Virus record (IMG/VR): IMGVR_UViG_3300042890_001057
Coordinates: 1 to 22,026 of that record
Strand: one strand, 5' to 3'
Length of the DNA stretch: 22,026 nt
Source: a virus
The notes under the pieces are model-generated. The model worked only from the letters and a program-made list of their open reading frames with translations. It did not search any database and was not told the origin of the DNA. The translations under genes and the position numbers were made by a program. Numbering within the stretch: position 1 is the stretch's first letter; each line of letters opens with the position of its first letter. This document shows, piece by piece, positions 8,307-17,032 of the stretch.

Positions 8307-9230
8307 TCATTCGTCAGCAAGACCCTTGAAGTAGTTAAGGTCTTCGTCCTCAGTATCAAATGGCACATCATCTGCGACCGACTTACGAGCCTTTGCAGCC
8401 TCGAAGTTTGGCCTCTGAGTAACAGAATCGGTGATCTGGTCCTTGACAGGAGCATCAGCCGAACCGAGACTTGCACCAAGAACGTCCTCAAGCTTCCGCT
8501 TGAGTTCGTCGTATGACTTGAAGTTCTTAGGATCCAGAACTTCCTTGAGAGAATGCTCGGACTTCCAAATCTTCTCAAGCTCTGCGTCATCATCAAGCAG
8601 AGGACCAGGAGTGTCAAACGATGAGGTATCGTAGTTGACATAACCAGCAACCATCTTAGAACGGAGCTTGAAGTTAGCACCAGACCAGAAATCGAACGGG
8701 TTGAGAGGCTTGTCGCCTTCATACTCGGGATTCATAGCAGAGGTAAGCTTGTCGAAAATCTTCTTGCCGAACTTGTACAAGAAGACCTTGCCTTCGTTAG
8801 CAGGATTAGAAGGATCCTTCACCACATAGATGTTAGCAACATAGTGGAGACGGCGCTTCTGCTCACGGGCCTGCTTACGCTGCCATGAGTTTTCATCGCT
8901 TGAAGCATTCCAAAGCTGAGAGTTAAATTCGGACACAGGATCCTTCTGTCCGAGAGAGGTAAGCGAGTTCTCAATGAACCACTTACCGGTAGGGCCCTTG
9001 AAGCCATGATCGAAATAGCGAATCCAAGGAAGAGCGTCATCGCCATCTACTGCGGGTGCAGGCAGGAAGCGAAAGACCGCCATGCCGTTGCCGGCCTTAT
9101 CGCGGTTGAGCTTCCAATAGCGATCATCTTCCGCACGGCCTTCGCCCTGAGGTTGATTGATCTTTTCGATTTCCTTGGTAAGACGACCAATATCGGCCGA
9201 AGACTTCTTGAGGGATGCAAAGTTTGACAT
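8307..9230 (-). CDS. 32: Single-stranded DNA-binding protein gp32
   Basis: A 307-residue relative of T4 gp32, which coats ssDNA in replication, recombination and repair. It has the N-terminal LAST-like cooperativity motif (SLKKSS), a core with 'RFLPAPA', 'KRRLHYVANIYVVKDPSNPANEGKVFLYKFGKKIFDKL' features and 'FDFWSGANFKLRSKMVAGYVNYD', and an acidic tail (DTEDEDLNYFKGLADE) for partner proteins. There are no cysteines, so the T4 zinc motif is absent. The start at 9230 has GGAGA upstream; a longer frame from 9314 would read through the promoter and is rejected. It has its own promoter at 9264-9292 and uses more C-ending codons than the structural genes, as expected for high expression. Confidence 0.95.
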   Translation of the reverse strand: MSNFASLKKSSADIGRLTKEIEKINQPQGEGRAEDDRYWKLNRDKAGNGMAVFRFLPAPAVDGDDALPWIRYFDHGFKGPTGKWFIENSLTSLGQKDPVSEFNSQLWNASSDENSWQRKQAREQKRRLHYVANIYVVKDPSNPANEGKVFLYKFGKKIFDKLTSAMNPEYEGDKPLNPFDFWSGANFKLRSKMVAGYVNYDTSSFDTPGPLLDDDAELEKIWKSEHSLKEVLDPKNFKSYDELKRKLEDVLGASLGSADAPVKDQITDSVTQRPNFEAAKARKSVADDVPFDTEDEDLNYFKGLADE

Positions 9231-9263
9231 TGTATGTTCTCCGTATGACAGTGTATGTTGAGT

Positions 9264-9292
9264 ATAATAGCACAGGAATCTCCCTGTGTCAA
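9264..9292 (-). promoter_or_regulatory. Sigma70-like promoter of gp32 with internal palindrome
   Basis: On the minus strand TTGACA (9287-9292) and TATTAT (9264-9269) are separated by exactly 17 bases, with TGC just before the -10 (extended -10). The spacer carries a perfect inverted repeat CACAGG-N6-CCTGTG (9271-9288) that could be an operator. The -35 includes the TGA stop of gp59. The leader is about 30 bases. Confidence 0.85.
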
Positions 9293-9888
9293 GTGTATAT
9301 AGTATCTTCCACATGAGATTTCAAGAGGTCTGCGAACTTTTTTTTGTCTATCTGTGGAAGAATAAACGGCGCAAACTTCTTGGCTTTGAAGCTAATCTTA
9401 GACCAAATGAAATCATCTGGTAGTTTAGCATCAAACTTCGGAACGAACTGGATAAAATAGTTGAGTATCACAAAGGTCTGATAAGATATAGATCCAGACA
9501 TTAGAGTCGGTATAATGTTTGGATATTGACTATCAAACCGTAAGGCGGGTTTGATATCTCCTATCGTCGCCAGTTCGTTCCGAAATACGTAAGACATGGA
9601 TTGATTGGTTTTCATATATGCCTTTGTGTTATCAAAGGCTTCATCATCAAGGAGGTCACCAACCCATGTCTTATCTTTTAGTAAGTTGGCCACTAGGTGA
9701 TCCTGCATGTTATCGCAGTTTCGTGCCAACTTTTCAAACTGAAACCTATCTCTCCTTGAGAGGTAAGTTTCCTTGCTAACGTGCCTTGTCTTACCATTAT
9801 ACTTGAAGTAATCGTAAGAGTCAAGATTAAAATGGTTTTTTAAAGCAAGATAGAGACAGAATGTTTCATATCCACTTAGTCTTGCCAT
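9289..9888 (-). CDS. 59: Helicase loader gp59
   Basis: A 199-residue relative of T4 gp59 (217 residues), which loads the gp41 helicase onto gp32-coated forks. The pattern 'YLALKNHFNLDSYDYFKYNGKTR' then 'SRRDRFQFEKLARNCDN', 'LVANLLKDKTWVGDLLDDEA' and 'ISYQTFVILNYFIQFVPKFD' follows the gp59 order (compare T4 'KYDVIKYNW', 'RRDKYFFQKLSEKY', 'NLVANQDAWIGDI', 'SFETFILLDSFL'). It is encoded immediately upstream of gp32, its binding partner, as in T4 relatives. It overlaps the upstream nucleotidyltransferase-like gene by 13 bases. Its stop codon lies inside the -35 box of the gp32 promoter. Confidence 0.9.
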   Translation of the reverse strand: MARLSGYETFCLYLALKNHFNLDSYDYFKYNGKTRHVSKETYLSRRDRFQFEKLARNCDNMQDHLVANLLKDKTWVGDLLDDEAFDNTKAYMKTNQSMSYVFRNELATIGDIKPALRFDSQYPNIIPTLMSGSISYQTFVILNYFIQFVPKFDAKLPDDFIWSKISFKAKKFAPFILPQIDKKKFADLLKSHVEDTIYT

Positions 9889-10628
9889 TCGTCAATCCAA
9901 GTTGTTGGAACAGCATAACCACCGCCACCACCTTTAGCAACAATCTTAGCATTGTTACTCAAAGCACGGTACAGGATATCACCGAGAGTGGGTGCTTCCT
10001 CTTCTTTGAAGACGCCAGTATAGCCACGATCAATAAACTTATTCACACGCCATTCCTGAACATTCTTACTGTTCTGGACAATAAGGTGCTTCTTGATAAT
10101 CGCATTATAAATCTTGCGAGTGATGTAAAGTTTACCTTCGCTGTATGAAGTCATGCAGTGGACATAATCAAAGTCATTGATCAAGTCCTTGCGCGTCAAG
10201 TGCTTTGTGAAAATAAACTGAACCCAATGGTCTTTTGAAGTCCAAACTTCTTCGACCTTATCGTTGTTACGGACATAATCATCCGTCTTGTTTTGAATAG
10301 AAGGAGTCCAGGCTTTCATCAACTCACGAATAGCAGATTGCTTTCGCTCATGGAGATCAGGATAGGAAGGATCACCAAGCACAAAGATATCAATATCCTT
10401 ATACTTCTCACCTTGAAGCTCAGATGCCCAGCAACCACCAGCAATAACAATATCAGAGTTTCGCTTGATCCAATTTGGGAGCAACATCTCAATAGTTTTC
10501 TTCACGGCCATCAGTTGCCGCGTTTCATCATCATCAAAAACTTCGCTTGTGTGTGTCATAGTTTTTCCATAATCATAATACCAATCTGGCGGCTTTGGTG
10601 TGGTCAGATAACTTTTAGGTATCAGCAT
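9876..10628 (-). CDS. Nucleotidyltransferase-like protein (Pol beta fold)
   Basis: A 250-residue protein with the Pol-beta superfamily signature: 'IVIAGGCWASELQGEKYKDIDIFVLG' features at about 60-85, where G64-G65 form the nucleotide-binding turn and D78/D80 are the paired metal-binding aspartates (DID). The rest has charged helices and no recognised tRNA- or antibiotic-binding domain. It lies between gp33 and gp59, coupled to gp33 by TAATG at 10626-10630 and overlapping gp59 by 13 bases. The substrate cannot be read from sequence; nucleotide transfer to an RNA, a protein or a small molecule are all open. A third catalytic acid is not obvious, so activity is unproven. Confidence 0.7.
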   Translation of the reverse strand: MLIPKSYLTTPKPPDWYYDYGKTMTHTSEVFDDDETRQLMAVKKTIEMLLPNWIKRNSDIVIAGGCWASELQGEKYKDIDIFVLGDPSYPDLHERKQSAIRELMKAWTPSIQNKTDDYVRNNDKVEEVWTSKDHWVQFIFTKHLTRKDLINDFDYVHCMTSYSEGKLYITRKIYNAIIKKHLIVQNSKNVQEWRVNKFIDRGYTGVFKEEEAPTLGDILYRALSNNAKIVAKGGGGGYAVPTTWIDEWQD

Positions 10629-10858
10629 TAGACAGGTAGTTTATATGTGTTCGACTTCGGTAAGAAATGTAACTCTTCGGCTTCAATCTTAATCTTGGAC
10701 TTCAACGCACCAGATATCATCTTGGCAGCAACTTCCACTTCTAATCCAATCTCATCACAATACTCAATCACTGCTTCCATATAACTGATACTCTTGTTCT
10801 TCGCAATCGTTTCAATCTTGAACGAGAAAGTTGTCACTTCATCTTTGGAGGGTGCCAT
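10628..10858 (-). CDS. 33: Late transcription coactivator gp33-like
   Basis: A 76-residue protein matching the compact gp33 of T4-like phages. A helical segment 'NKSISYMEAVIEYCDEIGLEVEVAAKMISGALKSKIKIEAEELHFLP' features (about 18-67) ends in 'KSNTYKLPV'. Gp33 bridges host RNA polymerase and the sliding clamp for transcription from gp55-dependent late promoters. Its presence agrees with the TATAAATA promoters in this window. It starts at the base after the stop of the HtrA-like gene and ends in TAATG shared with the next gene. It is shorter than T4 gp33 (112 residues), as is common outside the T-even group. Confidence 0.8.
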   Translation of the reverse strand: MAPSKDEVTTFSFKIETIAKNKSISYMEAVIEYCDEIGLEVEVAAKMISGALKSKIKIEAEELHFLPKSNTYKLPV

Positions 10859-11911
10859 TTACTTGGCCTTATCCGGTTCATATTCTTTTGAGAGCTTATA
10901 GTTTGTAATCACATCGATCATTTGCTTTTCACCATTTCTTTCGATTAGGACTTTGATCTTTTCATCAGCGCCGCTCATTGTGGCCATTTCGGAAACTAAA
11001 CTGTTAACATCCTTAACTACCAACCCAGCAGGATGATTGTTTGGAGTGTAGATAGCCAGTATCTTATCATCAACTTTGATTCCAGCCTTATCAGCAGCGC
11101 CATTCGCATCAAGTGAGTTTACTATAACAGAGTTGCCGTCATCTGTCAACCCAATACTTACATTCATTGCTCTCCATCTTACTTCACCGAACATTTGGAA
11201 ATCACCAAGGACTTTCTTGAGTAGAACGGATGGAATACAGAATCCATATGAGCCACCTTTTCCTTCAAACATGAGTTCGCTAACACAGATAACTTCACCG
11301 TATTCGTTGAAGACAGGGCCTCCTGAGTTGCCTTGGAAAATCTTAGCGTCCACTTGATCTACATACTTTGGATTTGGTCCTACGCGACGATTTTTGGAAG
11401 ACATGATACCTTCGGAAACTGTCCAAGTGAGTCCCCACGGATGACCGATAACAACTACCTTACTGCCTTCTTCCACTTCACGACTATCACCAATCGGAAG
11501 AATAACTGCTCCCTCATGTTTCTTAAACTCGTCCCACTTCTTTAATTTAAGAATGGCAATATCAACAATAGGATCGGTGCTGATAACCTCAGCATCATAG
11601 CGAGTTTGGTCATGAGCAGACACGACCGTTATTGCGCCATTGCCTTGAATAACATGATCATTTGTAACGATTAGATTCTCACCTATAATGAATCCAGTAC
11701 CGATACCTCCATTTGCGGTATCAAGTTTGTTTTCTATGAGAACGGTACCTTTTTTAACCTCACGAACAAGATGTTCCGTGCTTTTTATGGAACCAAAACC
11801 GCCTGTATACATGACAATAAATGCTGTAATGAACGATATTATGATTATATAAATGATTAGAAGAGAATGTCTTATAAGCGATAGAGAGTTTTGGATAAAA
11901 CAATTTTTCAT
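10859..11911 (-). CDS. Membrane-anchored HtrA/DegP-like serine protease with PDZ domain
   Basis: A 350-residue protein. Residues about 12-36 form one transmembrane anchor (SLLIIYIIIISFITAFIVMY), placing the rest in the periplasm. Residues about 45-240 are a trypsin-like protease with intact triad H86 (TNDHVI), D117 (DPIVDIAIL) and S196 (QGNSGGPV). Residues about 245-340 form one PDZ domain (LDANGAADKAGIKVDDKILAI). This is the layout of DegS: anchor, protease, single PDZ. It is the last membrane gene of an operon with TolQ- and TolR-like proteins and overlaps the two-TM gene by four bases (ATGA). Likely role: periplasmic quality control or cleavage of an envelope target, possibly governed by the channel pair. 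The target is unknown. Confidence 0.85.
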   Translation of the reverse strand: MKNCFIQNSLSLIRHSLLIIYIIIISFITAFIVMYTGGFGSIKSTEHLVREVKKGTVLIENKLDTANGGIGTGFIIGENLIVTNDHVIQGNGAITVVSAHDQTRYDAEVISTDPIVDIAILKLKKWDEFKKHEGAVILPIGDSREVEEGSKVVVIGHPWGLTWTVSEGIMSSKNRRVGPNPKYVDQVDAKIFQGNSGGPVFNEYGEVICVSELMFEGKGGSYGFCIPSVLLKKVLGDFQMFGEVRWRAMNVSIGLTDDGNSVIVNSLDANGAADKAGIKVDDKILAIYTPNNHPAGLVVKDVNSLVSEMATMSGADEKIKVLIERNGEKQMIDVITNYKLSKEYEPDKAK

Positions 11912-12501
11912 GGCTGTTTTCCTTTCGGAGGTGGTGCCCCCTGTTCTACAATTTCCAGATCACCAGGTGTCTTTGGTTTGTAGGTGTCTTTTTGATTAGA
12001 TAATAGTTTATTCATTATGTCATTCATGAGAACACCAATCTCACTCAAATCATCCATGCCTTGTTGACCTTCACCGCTGCCTTCTTTAGGCGGTATGCCA
12101 TTTATACGAACTTCTTTACCTTCAGCCATAGCCTGTTTTGCTTTCTCAAACTGAGCAGCGCGGTTGTTCGAATACTCCACATAGAATGTCTTTGGTGCTA
12201 TGCGTGGATATAAGTATTTATACGATTCGAGTTTTTCAGTCAAAAATATTGATATATAAATGCCGCCTTTGTCTGTAGACGATGGATTAACAATCACAAC
12301 AGAAGCAAGAGTACCTTTGACTTCATTTGGTTCTTCTGCGGGCCATCCTTTTACACCATCAAGTGCGAAATATACACAGTTAGCAAGAACAACAAACAAC
12401 GCAATAGAAGCAAACTTCACAAGAGAGTTATTCCAATACAAGGATATTGCCATCACAGCAACAGCAAATAGTGCGAATACTAATAGAAATGTCTGTGTCA
12501 T
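11908..12501 (-). CDS. Two-TM membrane protein of the TolQR-HtrA operon, unknown function
   Basis: A 197-residue protein with two N-terminal hydrophobic helices (about 4-24, LLVFALFAVAVMAISLYW, and about 28-48, VKFASIALFVVLANCVYFAL), so both ends probably lie on the same side. The soluble part (about 50-197) starts 'GWPAEEPNEVKGTLASVVIVNP', continues with beta-like 'GGIYISIFLTEKLESYKYLYPRIAPKTFYVEY', then a charged helix and a Pro/Gly-rich tail ending PPPKGKQP. I do not recognise the family. It is fused into the operon by four-base overlaps on both sides (11908-11911 and 12498-12501). Strict coupling suggests a stoichiometric partner of the channel or the protease. Confidence 0.8.
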   Translation of the reverse strand: MTQTFLLVFALFAVAVMAISLYWNNSLVKFASIALFVVLANCVYFALDGVKGWPAEEPNEVKGTLASVVIVNPSSTDKGGIYISIFLTEKLESYKYLYPRIAPKTFYVEYSNNRAAQFEKAKQAMAEGKEVRINGIPPKEGSGEGQQGMDDLSEIGVLMNDIMNKLLSNQKDTYKPKTPGDLEIVEQGAPPPKGKQP

Positions 12502-13142
12502 TGTAATCCTCTCTCGCCTCTAACAGAAACGAAATCACTCATAGTGCGAATGATATTCTTTTGATCATCCATTACAAAGCGTATCGCAGTCTTTTCTTGC
12601 CATACAAAATCCATCTTCATGTGTATGGTCTTCTCGACCACAAGACTTGGGTTAATTTTTATCACTTCAACAACTAAAGGAACTTCAATCGGCTCATCAA
12701 CAGGTAGCCCCAAGTTGCTTTGAGCACTCAAGCATGAGTATAGATGTAAGTTCACGACATATTCACCAGGAAATGTACCGCGCAGTGTTATGTACTCTTT
12801 GTTATCTGGATCAATAACAACTTCTTCTCCGTTGATATCGTATACGCTTCTACGCTTACCCATATCATCACGCTCGAAATACATTAGACCAGATTCTGGT
12901 ATTTTGTACGATACGATATTGTTTAATGGATCACGCACCCACAGATCAACATCACAATCAACAGCCTCAGGCCATTCCAATGTGATTATGTAGTCGGCAT
13001 TTTTCTTAATGCCTTCGTTGTTCTTTGTGATTGGTGCTATGAGAAGAGTTGTGAGTATGAACAGGACAACTGTGCCTGTCAATAAATTGATCAGTAGGTC
13101 AATATATGCGGTACGAAAGTCAAACTTCTTATGATTTATCAT
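12498..13142 (-). CDS. TolR/ExbD-like channel partner with beta-rich periplasmic domain
   Basis: A 214-residue protein with a single N-terminal membrane helix (about 14-37) whose opening 'FDFRTAYIDLLINLLTG' resembles ExbD/TolR/MotB stators. These carry an essential Asp just inside the helix, here D15. The periplasmic part (about 48-214) is not a TolR-type domain. It contains 'ITLEWPEAVDCDVDLWVRDPLNNIVSY' features and 'LRGTFPGEYVVNLHLYSC', which suggests a beta-sandwich. The gene overlaps the TolQ-like gene by 14 bases and the next gene by four. The pair is predicted to form a proton- or sodium-driven membrane motor. The novel periplasmic domain would decide what it acts on. Confidence 0.75.
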   Translation of the reverse strand: MINHKKFDFRTAYIDLLINLLTGTVVLFILTTLLIAPITKNNEGIKKNADYIITLEWPEAVDCDVDLWVRDPLNNIVSYKIPESGLMYFERDDMGKRRSVYDINGEEVVIDPDNKEYITLRGTFPGEYVVNLHLYSCLSAQSNLGLPVDEPIEVPLVVEVIKINPSLVVEKTIHMKMDFVWQEKTAIRFVMDDQKNIIRTMSDFVSVRGERGLQ

Positions 13143-13593
13143 CGTAGATCACCACATACAATAATGTCTTGGTGATCAGGCTTGATAGAATACCGACAGC
13201 ATTAGTATATAGCGCGATTCCCAATCCAACAGACATGTTAGCAAGTAACTTGGCCAGACTTGTCGCATCGGTAACTGAGGCCGAGGTGATGCCTGACGAT
13301 AAGAGGTAAATGAAGCCAATAACGGTACCTAACATACCGAGCGCCAACATCTGTTCGGAACCAAACCAAACAGCATCGATCAACTTTTTATTATCTCTTG
13401 TCTTGTTTGTGTATGCGATAAATCCAATCGCAGCAAGGGCTGTAATATACAACACCCCAAGCAAAGATGTGATCAGCGTCACATCATCGTGCCAAATCTT
13501 TTCGGTGATGCCAGCATATGTTGCCCAGTAAAAGGCAGTGGCGGAAGCAAGGACAGATACCCACCAAATGTATAAGGGTCTAACTAATTTCAT
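13129..13593 (-). CDS. TolQ/ExbB/MotA-family ion-channel protein
   Basis: A 154-residue protein with four predicted membrane helices (about 8-27, 38-60, 84-101, 118-149). The family signature is in the last two: 'MLALGMLGTVIGFIYLLSSG' (compare 'LGLLGTV.Gi...F' in TolQ/ExbB) and 'LANMSVGLGIALYTNAVGILSSL' (compare 'ia.AL..T..Gl..aipa'). It lacks the extended cytoplasmic domain of MotA and the long tail of ZorA, so it is a minimal version. AAGGA lies seven bases before the ATG. It is the first gene of a four-gene envelope operon that ends with an HtrA-like protease. Phage-encoded members of this family are not something I know to be common. Confidence 0.8.
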   Translation of the reverse strand: MKLVRPLYIWWVSVLASATAFYWATYAGITEKIWHDDVTLITSLLGVLYITALAAIGFIAYTNKTRDNKKLIDAVWFGSEQMLALGMLGTVIGFIYLLSSGITSASVTDATSLAKLLANMSVGLGIALYTNAVGILSSLITKTLLYVVIYDDKS

Positions 13594-13644: not shown

Positions 13645-13896
13645 TTAATCGCTCTTTGAAACGAACTCGTTCAACTTCTTTGCCATTTCGATGACCTGTG
13701 CTTCATCAAAGACCGGTACAGAAGGGAACGGAGGAAATTCGGCATCCCGACCCTTGTCGTGTAACATACGAGCCTTTTCACAAGCCATGTTCCAATCATT
13801 TTCAATCTTGATTCGCATATTCATACTCTGCTCGGACAGAATAGACTGTGCCATAGCCAGCAGGTCAAAACGAAGTTCGTAAGGTGTCTTTGTCAT
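13645..13896 (-). CDS. Small conserved phage protein, function unknown
   Basis: An 83-residue soluble, helical protein: 'TPYELRFDLLAMAQSILSEQ' then 'IENDWNMACEKARMLHDKGRDAEFPPFPSVPVFDEAQVIEMAKKLNEFV'. Proteins beginning 'TPYElR.ellklA' occur in many T4-like phages without an assigned function. The leader AATAAACAAAGGAAACACAC is nearly identical to the leader of the gene starting at 19315, with AAAGGAAA as ribosome site. It follows the DUF992 gene by 17 bases and precedes the channel operon by 51 bases. Confidence 0.8.
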   Translation of the reverse strand: MTKTPYELRFDLLAMAQSILSEQSMNMRIKIENDWNMACEKARMLHDKGRDAEFPPFPSVPVFDEAQVIEMAKKLNEFVSKSD

Positions 13897-13913: not shown

Positions 13914-14369
13914 TTATTGCAGAGTTAATGCGGCAACGGCAGCAGCGACATTAAGTCCTGTCTGACCCTGCACACTGAGAGGCTGTAGTGCAATGTTGTT
14001 ATTCAGCCCACCAACGAGAGCGTTAGCTCCCAATCCAGCAACTACGGTTGCTTCGGCATTAACGCCAATATAGGTACCAGAAAGATCAGCACCAGAACCG
14101 GTTGGCGACATTACGATCCATGCGATGACCTTATTGTCAGTATATCCAATATCAACACCAATCTTGGTGATGTTGCCCTTGTACTTGGTCTTCTTTCCAT
14201 TAGAAGCAGTAAATACGCAATCAACCTTCTTGCTTGAGCCAATAACCCAACCCCAGCCAGAATGTACCTTGCATGAAAGAACACCAGTCTTAAGTTCAGC
14301 AGCATTAGCAGATGAGGTTGCAGCGAGTAGACCCAGTGAAATTAGGGCCGCAGTGAAAAACTTCTTCAT
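13914..14369 (-). CDS. DUF992 family periplasmic protein
   Basis: A 151-residue protein with a clear Sec signal peptide (MKKFFTAALISLGLLAATSS, cut after ANA at about 23). The mature part follows the DUF992 pattern: 'AELKTGVLSCKV...GWVIGSSKKVDCVF' with C33 and C51, then 'GTYIGVNAEATVVAGLGANALVGG' and the strongly conserved ending 'IALQPLSVQGQTGLNVAAAVAALTL'. DUF992 proteins are small exported proteins common in Rhizobiales and of unknown function. A copy in a phage is a likely host-derived gene and a host pointer. CGGAGA lies nine bases upstream of the ATG. It is directly downstream of the tmRNA. Confidence 0.9.
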   Translation of the reverse strand: MKKFFTAALISLGLLAATSSANAAELKTGVLSCKVHSGWGWVIGSSKKVDCVFTASNGKKTKYKGNITKIGVDIGYTDNKVIAWIVMSPTGSGADLSGTYIGVNAEATVVAGLGANALVGGLNNNIALQPLSVQGQTGLNVAAAVAALTLQ

Positions 14370-14397
14370 TATTATATTCTCCGTTATGTTAAATGGT

Positions 14398-14728
14398 GGA
14401 GGGATTCTGTTTCCAAGCTCCCTCCGGGCTCATGTTAGGCTGCGAGAGCCATACGAGGTGCAAAATTATCGTTTGCAACTATTGTTTTGCGCTTGAAGTA
14501 GTCGCCTACTATTATCTCCAGTTACCTATTTCACTCTTGTCGATCCTGTTTCGCCCCCATCAGAGATACACCATACTGGTGGTATTAGTATGATTTATTC
14601 CCACATTCACAGCCTTACAAGTCATACAGTAGGTCGTGGTGTATCTTTGGTGGAGGCGCGGGGTACTGCCCCCCGGTCCAAGTAGTCTTTCAGTTTCCTT
14701 CATCGATAATATTTGCGAATGAATAGGG
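14398..14728 (-). ncRNA. ssrA: Circularly permuted two-piece tmRNA (alphaproteobacterial type)
   Basis: Read on the minus strand, the acceptor piece comes first (about 14728 to 14648) and ends GCGCCTCCACCA. It carries a T-arm of stem CGGGG/CCCCG around loop GGCAGTA (14659-14675). A linker (14647-14559) follows, folded by a perfect 10-bp stem AGATACACCA/TGGTGTATCT that brings the two ends together. The coding piece then starts at 14558 with GGGGGCGAAACAGGATCGAC. GGGGGCG pairs with CGCCTCC, leaving the G3-U wobble that marks alanine tRNA identity. CAAGAGT (14533-14539) pairs with ACTACTTG (14679-14686) as the start of P2, with one bulge. PK1 is AGTAG-GCGA-CTACT with loop GCG pairing to CGC (14489-14491). 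The tag frame follows, then a 7-bp hairpin (14398-14425). The outer ends of both pieces are estimates. Confidence 0.93.
14435..14476 (-). other. tmRNA tag reading frame (ANDNFAPRMALAA)
   Basis: The resume codon GCA is at 14474-14476, preceded by CAATAGTT, which matches the conserved upstream context (E. coli AAUAGUCGCAAACGA). The frame reads A-N-D-N-F-A-P-R-M-A-L-A-A and stops at TAA (14435-14437). The AND opening and the ALAA ending are those of standard SsrA degradation tags recognised by ClpX and ClpA. Confidence 0.93.
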
Positions 14729-14816
14729 GCCCAAAGCGATAGCATATGTAAGCCAAACGGTGCTCTTTACGCACAGCCCAATACTTTATATCCCATATCC
14801 AATCAATTGTGTACAT
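14700..14816 (-). CDS. Possible 38-residue basic aromatic protein upstream of the tmRNA
   Basis: An ATG at 14816, eight bases after the stop of the small membrane protein gene, opens a 38-codon frame: MYTIDWIWDIKYWAVRKEHR then a basic aromatic tail ending RKYYR. Its 3' end overlaps the probable 5' part of the tmRNA acceptor piece, so translation and RNA processing would compete. AGAAAG lies upstream but the spacing is long. The frame could be chance; the argument for it is the tight packing and that no other gene explains 14729-14824. Confidence 0.35.
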   Translation of the reverse strand: MYTIDWIWDIKYWAVRKEHRLAYICYRFGPLFIRKYYR

Positions 14817-14824
14817 TATATATC

Positions 14825-15040
14825 TTACTTTCTCTTTCGCGTGGCCTTCTTCACGGGACCATCGTCATAAGGTGTCCAACGCTTTACAGTACCATCATCC
14901 TGAAGTTTGATAAGCCTCTCACGCTCTAAGGCCTGAATCGTTACAGTAGCACCAAGAATAAATCCTGTGCGTCTGCTATAATAAGCACATACACCAAAAG
15001 AAAGTACCAGAAGAGCAATCATCCAAGTTTCAAGGTACAT
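14825..15040 (-). CDS. Small single-TM membrane protein
   Basis: A 71-residue protein with one N-terminal membrane helix (about 5-22, TWMIALLVLSFGVCAYY) and a cytoplasmic basic tail that includes 'LERERLIKLQDDGTVKRW' and ends KKATRKRK. The 'ale.e.LI.i.ddGtikr' segment is the kind of motif found in small membrane proteins of T4-like phages. Function not recognised. Its ATG overlaps the stop of the exonuclease gene (TAATG at 15038-15042). Confidence 0.7.
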   Translation of the reverse strand: MYLETWMIALLVLSFGVCAYYSRRTGFILGATVTIQALERERLIKLQDDGTVKRWTPYDDGPVKKATRKRK

Positions 15041-15711
15041 TATAGTTTTTCCTGTTTATAGAGATGAATCTTTTCCAGTAGACTTTCAATATACTGGTTC
15101 TTATCGCGTATGAAGACTTGTGGGTGTTCCATGAAATCAACAGATACAAGAATAACAATTTGATCTATGGGTTCACCCACAAGTTCTTCATACATTAGAG
15201 CATACGCAGTACATTGCTCAAAGTAATTTTCTATCCACTCTTCCTTCTTTTCTTTTCTGGAAGTTTTGAAGTCGATGATTGAGAGTGTCTTTCCAAACTC
15301 GGCGATAACATCTGTTCTTCCAGCAACGCCAAGCTTCTCACTGTATAGAGGACTCTCAATATAGCGTATATTGTCGATCAAGTCAAGTGTTTCTTTCATA
15401 TCGTTGAAAGATTGTTTCATGTCAGGCATTACACCATCCAAGAATCCATCTTCACCACGAATGTAACTTTCCATCATGTTATGGAATTTAGTTCCGCGCA
15501 GGGACGCGCGTGTAGAAACTCTATCAGCTTCCTCATGACCAACGCGATTGCGCCACTCAATCATAGCCTTCTTTTTGAAATGGCCGAGAACAGTTGTGAC
15601 AGATGGAAGTTTGACACCGTTGGGAGAGATATAAAACCTCTCCCCAGTGCTTTCATCCACCTCAAGCTGTTTAAGCTCGGGCATTCCTTCGACAAAATTA
15701 AATTTCTTCAT
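15040..15711 (-). CDS. PD-(D/E)XK exonuclease, RecB/Cas4-like
   Basis: A 223-residue nuclease with the RecB-family order of motifs: 'RGTKFHNMMESY' (H77), 'GVAGRTDVIAEF' (D134), 'LSIIDFKTS' (D147, K149) and 'QCTAYALMYEE' (Q166, Y170, the QxxxY motif). No iron-sulphur cysteine set is present, so it is not a Cas4 of the FeS type. Phage members are thought to act in recombination, DNA repair or host DNA breakdown. It overlaps phoH by four bases (ATGA at 15708-15711) and the next small gene by one base, forming a phoH-exonuclease-membrane protein operon. Confidence 0.88.
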   Translation of the reverse strand: MKKFNFVEGMPELKQLEVDESTGERFYISPNGVKLPSVTTVLGHFKKKAMIEWRNRVGHEEADRVSTRASLRGTKFHNMMESYIRGEDGFLDGVMPDMKQSFNDMKETLDLIDNIRYIESPLYSEKLGVAGRTDVIAEFGKTLSIIDFKTSRKEKKEEWIENYFEQCTAYALMYEELVGEPIDQIVILVSVDFMEHPQVFIRDKNQYIESLLEKIHLYKQEKL

Positions 15712-16421
15712 AAACCCATTGCGTCTTTCTGTATTATATATGACTTCACCAGACCAGAACGCACAATATCTTCCTTCATGAATTCCACATGCTCAAATGT
15801 ATTGATACGCTTTGTAATGGCCATCAACTGTGTGATGCCTTCCTGTTCGTGTCTCTTTAGTAAGTCTGTCTGTCTAAAGTCACCACACACGATGATACGA
15901 GATTCATCACCCATGCGTGTCATTACTGTGTCTGCTTCTTGGAAAGTCAAGTTCTGGCTTTCGTCCAATATTACAATCGCTTTGTTGAATGTGATACCAC
16001 GCAAGAATGAAGTGGTTGTGAACTGGACAATTCCCTTCATCTTGAGTATATCGTAACCATCACCTCTTCCAAACAAACTATCGCAAATCTCACGATATGG
16101 TTCTTCATAGACAGCAGCCTTTTCTTTCATTGAACCTGGAAGAAATCCCATATCTCTGGAAGGTACAACCGAGCGAACAATGATTATTTTATTATATATT
16201 GAGTTGCCTGTCAAGATTTCATTTAGAGCAAGATACAAAGCACAGAATGTTTTTCCTGTTCCAGCAAAACCATGTAGCATTAGATGATAGCCTTGTCGAT
16301 ATGAACTGAATGCTTTCTCCTGATTTGCTGTGAGAGGCTTGATTGTTCTTAACTCAAAATGAGCAGCCTGCTTCTGTTGTGCTTCTGGTTGTGGTTTCTT
16401 GTTCTTAGGTTTTCTAGACAT
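15708..16421 (-). CDS. phoH: PhoH-like ATPase
   Basis: A 237-residue PhoH-family P-loop ATPase: Walker A GFAGTGKT (about 51-58), Walker B with VILDESQN (about 150-157), and the typical 'KIIIVRSVVPSRDMGFLPG' and 'ESRIIVCGDFRQTDL' segments. The DEsQN box and 'GD.rQtDl' sensor are diagnostic of the family. PhoH is widespread in marine and soil myoviruses, with proposed RNA-related or phosphate-stress roles that remain unsettled. The start at 16421 has AAAGGAGA at ideal spacing. A longer frame from 16505 would translate through the hairpin at 16439-16477 and is rejected. Confidence 0.93.
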   Translation of the reverse strand: MSRKPKNKKPQPEAQQKQAAHFELRTIKPLTANQEKAFSSYRQGYHLMLHGFAGTGKTFCALYLALNEILTGNSIYNKIIIVRSVVPSRDMGFLPGSMKEKAAVYEEPYREICDSLFGRGDGYDILKMKGIVQFTTTSFLRGITFNKAIVILDESQNLTFQEADTVMTRMGDESRIIVCGDFRQTDLLKRHEQEGITQLMAITKRINTFEHVEFMKEDIVRSGLVKSYIIQKDAMGL

Positions 16422-16438
16422 GTTGTCTCCTTTAAAAG

Positions 16439-16477
16439 CAAAGGGGAACGAATCACCTGCGTGACCATTCCCCTTTG
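16439..16477 (-). terminator. Hairpin after the homing endonuclease, before phoH
   Basis: A perfect 10-bp outer stem CAAAGGGGAA / TTCCCCTTTG encloses an inner TCAC-CTGC-GTGA hairpin (16453-16464 as read on the plus strand). On the minus strand a short CTTTT follows. It lies in the 80 bases between the GIY-YIG gene and phoH and could be an attenuator or a processing/stability element rather than a full terminator. Confidence 0.65.
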
Positions 16478-16501
16478 AAACTTGCGACTTTCTTTTTGAC
16501 T

Positions 16502-17032
16502 TCATACTGGTCTAACAGAATAACCTTTGTGACTGTTTCTTTCGCCAGCAGATACCCTATATAAACAACTCGTTGTGAGATTGTTGTTTCTGGCAAAGTT
16601 TGCCAAGTTTTTAATCTTCATCTCTTTACCTGAAGGATCAGTTATAATCCATTCTTGAGATTTGGCATCAATCATGTTCTTAATGTGTCTTGATTTTTGT
16701 TTTTTGCCAAGTTTGGCTTTACGCATTTTTTCGCGTTGAACTTCCGAATAAACGATACCTGTACCGCCATCGCCGCCATCAGTTTTGTTTCTAAGTATGC
16801 CACTATTTTTATCTATACGGCCATACCAAAAAATCATTCTTCTTTCAAGAGCGGCAGCACCGATTTGAGTAAGATTTGATTCAAGAAGCACAATAAGTGA
16901 TTTATTTTTAGGAGTGCTAATACCATGTTTACGATGTTCAACTGAATCCCATGCCCTATATTTTTTACCCTTACCTATATAATAGGGCATTCCATCGGAT
17001 TGACGCAAGTATGCGTAAACATAATATTCCAT
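16502..17032 (-). CDS. GIY-YIG homing endonuclease with NUMOD-like DNA-binding end
   Basis: A 176-residue protein. The N-terminal 75 residues are a GIY-YIG nuclease of the 'YVYAYLR...PYYIGKGKKYRAW' variant, with the expected catalytic Arg R26 and Glu E63 (ALERRMIFWYGR). A linker carries a basic 'REKMRKAKLGKK' segment (NUMOD3-like), and the C-terminus 'EWIITDPSGKEMKIKNLANFARNN' reads as a NUMOD1-like helix-turn-helix. Free-standing endonucleases of this type (Seg-like) cut intronless alleles to spread between phages. The ATG overlaps the stop of the FmdB-like gene. It is inserted just before phoH and is followed by a strong hairpin. Confidence 0.9.
   Translation of the reverse strand: MEYYVYAYLRQSDGMPYYIGKGKKYRAWDSVEHRKHGISTPKNKSLIVLLESNLTQIGAAALERRMIFWYGRIDKNSGILRNKTDGGDGGTGIVYSEVQREKMRKAKLGKKQKSRHIKNMIDAKSQEWIITDPSGKEMKIKNLANFARNNNLTTSCLYRVSAGERNSHKGYSVRPV

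Follow-up and report, generated by a model that had tools for sequence, protein, structure and literature searches.

In phages, a gene of the DUF992 family recurs directly downstream of a tmRNA gene, a pairing that is new here. The window (the whole stretch of 22,026 nucleotides that was analysed) is a 22-kb virus record and a fragment of a T4-like myovirus, with PHROG homologues of tail tube, baseplate tube cap, head closure, PhoH, exonuclease, gp33, gp59 and gp32 proteins. We consider it reasonably probable that a host DUF992 gene was captured beside an older phage tmRNA and was kept there, its product acting as an exported barrel of the envelope. The pair looks like a unit built by viruses rather than a chromosome segment taken over in one piece, because the pairing recurs in about eight viral lineages (judged by identity and context) and was never seen in bacteria.

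The DUF992 gene and the tmRNA of the window

The features to which the argument refers are, by position in the window:

8307-9314 (-): T4 gp32-type single-strand DNA-binding protein (phrog_224)
9289-9888 (-): T4 gp59-type helicase loader (phrog_269)
10628-10858 (-): T4 gp33-type late-transcription coactivator (phrog_254)
10859-11911 (-): HtrA-like trypsin/PDZ protease; lipobox in relatives
11908-12501 (-): 197-aa membrane protein of the MotA-HtrA block
12498-13142 (-): partner gene of the MotA-like one; 214-aa product with a hydrophobic stretch at its N-terminus
13129-13593 (-): MotA/ExbB/ZorA-like membrane protein (weak match)
13645-13896 (-): 83-aa protein of a family found beside phage tmRNAs; downstream of DUF992 here
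13914-14369 (-): DUF992 gene, 151 aa (Pfam match)
14379-14382 (-): Shine-Dalgarno-like GGAG, 9 nt 5' of the DUF992 ATG (from the sequence)
14395-14754 (-): permuted (two-piece) alphaproteobacterial-type tmRNA gene (Rfam RF01849 and RF04321, above gathering score)
14435-14476 (-): tag reading frame of the tmRNA, ANDNFAPRMALAA and stop
14559-14647 (-): 89-nt intervening segment that separates the acceptor piece of the tmRNA from the coding piece
14825-15040 (-): 71-aa protein whose N-terminal part has one hydrophobic stretch (by eye); conserved beside the exonuclease
15040-15711 (-): PD-(D/E)XK exonuclease (phrog_298)
15708-16505 (-): PhoH-like protein (phrog_170)

The assignment of 13914-14369 to DUF992, made in the initial annotation, is confirmed by a full-length Pfam match to PF06186 above the gathering score (159.8 bits against a cut-off of 22.7, E 4.8e-47; profile positions 5-143 of 143). 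The protein begins with a predicted signal-peptide-like N-terminus (MKKFFTAALISLGLLAATSSANA, by eye), keeps Cys33 and Cys51, and has the conserved C-terminal motif LQPxSVQGQTGLN. That the family is small, exported and rhizobial proved broadly right, with export as a prediction: DUF992 is present in 28 of the 385 alphaproteobacterial genomes sampled. In the literature searched, a single paper names DUF992. PADLOC matched no defence model to the DUF992 protein or to the 83-aa protein, and for the latter Pfam and PHROG give no known family; the MotA-like protein weakly matches ZorA in PADLOC. Identification of the 83-aa protein as gp33 was considered and rejected, since it has no match to gp33 of phage Melnitz and the true gp33 lies at 10628-10858.

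The gene does lie directly downstream of a tmRNA on the same strand, as first described, and the tmRNA can now be specified as a permuted, two-piece one. It matches RF04321 (permuted tmRNA) at 14435-14709 with 115 bits against a cut-off of 47 and RF01849 (alpha_tmRNA) at 14395-14754 with 105 bits against 50, all seven base pairs of the acceptor stem joining the two pieces are paired, and the tag ANDNFAPRMALAA ends in hydrophobic residues (ALAA); by these signs the tmRNA looks intact. ARAGORN overlooks it, yet finds a close copy in L004 with the tag ANDNFAPRMALAA, and was therefore rejected as sole detector of phage tmRNAs in favour of Rfam. Only 25 nt separate the end of the tmRNA model (14395) from the DUF992 ATG (14369) and, because this gap leaves no space for a promoter of its own, DUF992 would share a transcript with the tmRNA. 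A scan for T4 late-promoter motifs gave no site beside the tmRNA and counts near chance, and Rfam found no riboswitch family in the window.

Related tmRNA genes show two further peculiarities. In L003 (3938-4372), L009 (1772-2206) and L011 (2683-3111), the segment between the two tmRNA pieces is taken up by an HNH/homing-endonuclease-like open reading frame; the acceptor stem is nonetheless paired 7/7 in L003 and L009, and in L011 the stop codon of the reading frame overlaps the 5' end of the coding piece. Processing of the tRNA type would cut such a gene out of the permuted tmRNA with no need for splicing, and a literature search found no published description of an HNH gene in this position. 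Unusually long tags also occur: one of 25 aa, ANDNFVRNEQIAQSIVVRDRDLVAA, in L164, L165 and L168, and a still longer predicted tag of 29 aa, ANDNALSNVTFVDFSAPVTAVNEDFALAA, in the DUF992-less phages L253, L265 and L296.

Recurrence of the pair in viruses

Ten viral DUF992 loci came from a scan with a single sequence (86-99% identity) and another 20 from a scan with a profile (41-51% identity). Of the 30 loci, 26 have a same-strand tmRNA upstream, detected by cmscan in 24 and by ARAGORN in 2; the contigs of L005 and L166 start within the 3' part of the tmRNA and were counted as paired, and those of L010 and L162 begin too near DUF992 and were left out as uninformative. The tmRNA is thus directly upstream in 28 of 28 informative loci, which argues that the adjacency is not due to chance.

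The paired loci fall into at least three genome contexts. In the first, to which the window belongs, the exonuclease, the 71-aa gene and variable cargo precede the tmRNA, which is followed by the 83-aa gene and DUF992 and then by the MotA-like, 214/215-aa, 197-aa, HtrA-like, gp33, gp59 and gp32 genes; the MotA-HtrA block is absent from L161 and L169. In the second (L164, L168 and L172), the order is a gene for a protein of 1170-1200 aa, tmRNA, a 73-aa gene, DUF992, a PP-loop ATPase and a CAU tRNA, with no small gene listed between tmRNA and DUF992 in L172. In the third (L154), the tmRNA, a 77-aa gene and DUF992 precede T4-like topoisomerase subunits. A conserved protein of about 83 aa is encoded between the tmRNA and DUF992 in most viral loci; its gene follows DUF992 in the group of the window and is absent from L169-L171. 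Across contexts, the constant part is the tmRNA and DUF992, usually with the small gene.

Two of the neighbouring gene sets deserve mention in their own right. The envelope-gene block at 10859-13593 (MotA/ZorA-like, 214-aa, 197-aa and HtrA-like), between the tmRNA cassette and gp33, is conserved in several phages, and a MotA-like gene also lies 5' of the tmRNA in L189 and L206. The TilS-like PP-loop ATPase stands directly before a tRNA with a CAU anticodon in L164 (7375-8072), L168 (6798-7489) and L172 (6417-7116), and is assigned to PF01171 by Pfam in L164; these three phages possibly encode a tRNA-Ile2 with its own lysidine synthetase.

The viral DUF992 genes are under purifying selection: dN/dS is about 0.12 between the window and L011, 0.09 between L159 and L160, and 0.02-0.23 within viral lineages overall; pairs between lineages were saturated and were given no weight.

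tmRNAs are common in aquatic myoviruses, and most of those found here have no DUF992 beside them. A pattern scan of viral contigs, with the pattern taken from the window's own tmRNA, returned at least 120 stretches with an alpha-type tmRNA. Among the 120 matches listed, 75 had T4-like flanks and 65 had gp33 downstream, at a distance from the tmRNA of 72 to 4718 nt (median 788). The 83-aa family occurred within 1 kb downstream in 12 of the listed matches, only one of which has DUF992, and DUF992 occurred in only one of the 120 (L285, the same contig as L161, already in the set). The cultured phage Melnitz likewise has PhoH, exonuclease, tmRNA, gp33 and gp59 in this order and no DUF992. Because DUF992-less phages, including Melnitz, share the site, we take the tmRNA at the T4-like site to be old and common and DUF992 to be a rare addition.

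Origin of the pair

An origin of DUF992 from a host, as initially proposed, is supported. In a tree of 85 rows (careful mode), the phage proteins are nested inside the Hyphomicrobiales DUF992 proteins; the main viral clade (14 rows, support 97/91) has as its sister the DUF992 of the Hyphomicrobiales MAGs L012, L013 and L018 (94/82). The window protein has no match in PHROG, and a protein search of INPHARED found relatives in none of the sequenced phage isolates; in IMG/VR, about 30 contigs carry the gene. Commonness in phages, named initially as an argument against a host origin, thus holds by half. The DUF992 gene thus likely stems from Hyphomicrobiales.

The further proposal, that DUF992 was picked up together with ssrA, fared less well, and joint acquisition is unlikely. 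No tmRNA lies in the flanks, of up to 5 kb on either side, of 80 host DUF992 loci or within about 1.5 kb of 30 additional ones; as a positive control, ARAGORN detected 26 of 29 host tmRNAs from the same genomes, the three missed being matches covered only partly by Rfam. Where ssrA and DUF992 share a host contig, they are at least about 120 kb apart (closest, L039 and its tmRNA). The tmRNA of the window groups with those of DUF992-less phages at the same T4-like site. In a tree of the coding piece only (tag left out, 149 rows, about 150 columns), a single branch (SH-aLRT 97) parts 96 phage from 53 host rows, in samples that are biased in that phage rows were picked by the window-tmRNA pattern and host rows lean to high-scoring Rfam matches. 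A single clade of all DUF992-phage tmRNAs is compatible with the data. Synteny carries more weight than this tree against joint acquisition.

These observations bear on three other histories. That a single event brought both the tmRNA and DUF992 out of one host chromosome is highly improbable in view of the missing host linkage, the tmRNA at the same site in DUF992-less phages and the split between phage and host tmRNAs. Two points speak for it: in this short alignment the AU test does not reject a grouping of the window tmRNA with those of its nearest DUF992 hosts (p 0.178), although this constraint lowers the log-likelihood by 35 units, and the tmRNAs of L012, L013 and L018 bear tags (ANDNFAPVALAA) close to the phage ANDNFAPRMALAA. 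The likeness of tags was nevertheless set aside as proof of a common host origin; it is weak evidence because many DUF992-less phages carry tags of the APMALAA/APLALAA type. We regard as quite improbable, though a little less so, that DUF992 is carried along passively and does nothing for the phage: its absence from all INPHARED isolates searched and from nearly all tmRNA-bearing phages among the matches listed would fit, but the gene is under strong purifying selection, and the signal-peptide-like start (by eye) and cysteines are intact across viral lineages only 40-50% identical.

A more serious contender, although still on the unlikely side, is that the tmRNA flank is a hotspot at which DUF992 was captured repeatedly from different Hyphomicrobiales, so that the link reflects the hotspot and not a joint function. 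The DUF992 proteins of L154 and L169 do stand beside Aminobacter, apart from the main viral clade (98/93, on long branches), and the interval beside the tmRNA holds other cargo, such as a phosphoesterase, a 2OG oxygenase, the MotA-HtrA block and HNH genes. However, a single viral DUF992 clade is not rejected (p-AU 0.276), and the gene keeps its tmRNA neighbour outside the gp33 locus, where a hotspot at a fixed site alone would not hold the pair together. The initial suggestion of one acquisition hotspot is accordingly supported in part, because the interval between tmRNA and gp33 varies in both length (about 70 to 4,700 nt) and cargo.

Under the capture history that we favour, an ancestral phage would already have carried the permuted tmRNA in the order PhoH, exonuclease, tmRNA, gp33, gp59 and gp32. 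A Hyphomicrobiales DUF992 gene would have been captured just 3' of this tmRNA, retained there by purifying selection, and moved with the tmRNA, usually together with the 83-aa gene, into other phage backgrounds.

Proposed role and relation to known systems

The fold of DUF992 offers a lead to its function. In searches with an AlphaFold model of middling quality (pLDDT 69.6, pTM 0.65), the best fold match was EipA of Brucella (5UC0; VIA Z 8.6 over 105 residues), for which Foldseek gave a probability of 1.00 but an E-value of 0.016; the SYLF protein 7rfq scored Z 4.2. An independent sequence-profile search from DUF992 reached 5UC0 at E 4.5e-4. Pfam DUF1134, the family of EipA, did not match the window protein, for which DUF992 was the only hit at E up to 1. 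EipA is periplasmic, serves envelope integrity and is required to withstand envelope stress, and an interaction with lipids has been proposed for it from its likeness to SYLF domains (PMC10787603); BR0708, a DUF992 protein of Brucella, is counted among outer-membrane proteins (PMC6377625). From the match to EipA, the periplasmic role of EipA and the listing of BR0708, we therefore propose that DUF992 is an exported barrel acting on the envelope.

The protein would leave the cytoplasm through its signal peptide and, as a small periplasmic barrel, could contact envelope lipids as proposed for EipA. It might thereby stabilise or alter the host envelope during infection, with less leakage, a changed timing of lysis or exclusion of a second phage as possible outcomes, and the phage tmRNA would free ribosomes from broken transcripts and add a phage-specified tag. 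A bolder and rather doubtful reading is that DUF992 works with the tmRNA and the 83-aa protein as a single functional phage module, which passes as a unit from one phage lineage to another. It would couple trans-translation, tuned by a phage tag, to an exported barrel that binds lipids and remodels the envelope of the host. If true, superinfection exclusion or control of lysis of a new kind could be the result, for example. The strict link across lineages gives the phage tmRNA a concrete partner to test in the form of one envelope gene of host origin, DUF992 gains another context besides the host one and, in EipA, a probable relative by structure, and the uncultured phages that carry the gene are marked as likely visitors of Hyphomicrobiales.

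Compared with known systems, the phage DUF992 proteins resemble those of Hyphomicrobiales in Pfam family (40-54% identity), signal-peptide-like start, cysteine pair and LQPLSVQGQTGLN motif, but the host genes are chromosomal and never beside ssrA in the loci examined, whereas the phage copies lie within a phage operon. EipA (DUF1134/COG5400, 5UC0), with its SYLF likeness, is the top profile and fold match and, like DUF992 by prediction, a small exported alphaproteobacterial barrel, although it shares only about 20% identity and belongs to a separate Pfam family. Melnitz, a phage of Methylophilales, and pelagimyophages also encode a two-piece tmRNA (PMC9004378). That of Melnitz is, as in the window, a permuted alpha-type tmRNA at the exonuclease-tmRNA-gp33-gp59 site; a glutamine riboswitch is reported for Melnitz (PMC9004378), in contrast to the window, and its tmRNA, unlike that of the window, has neither a DUF992 nor an 83-aa gene as its neighbour.
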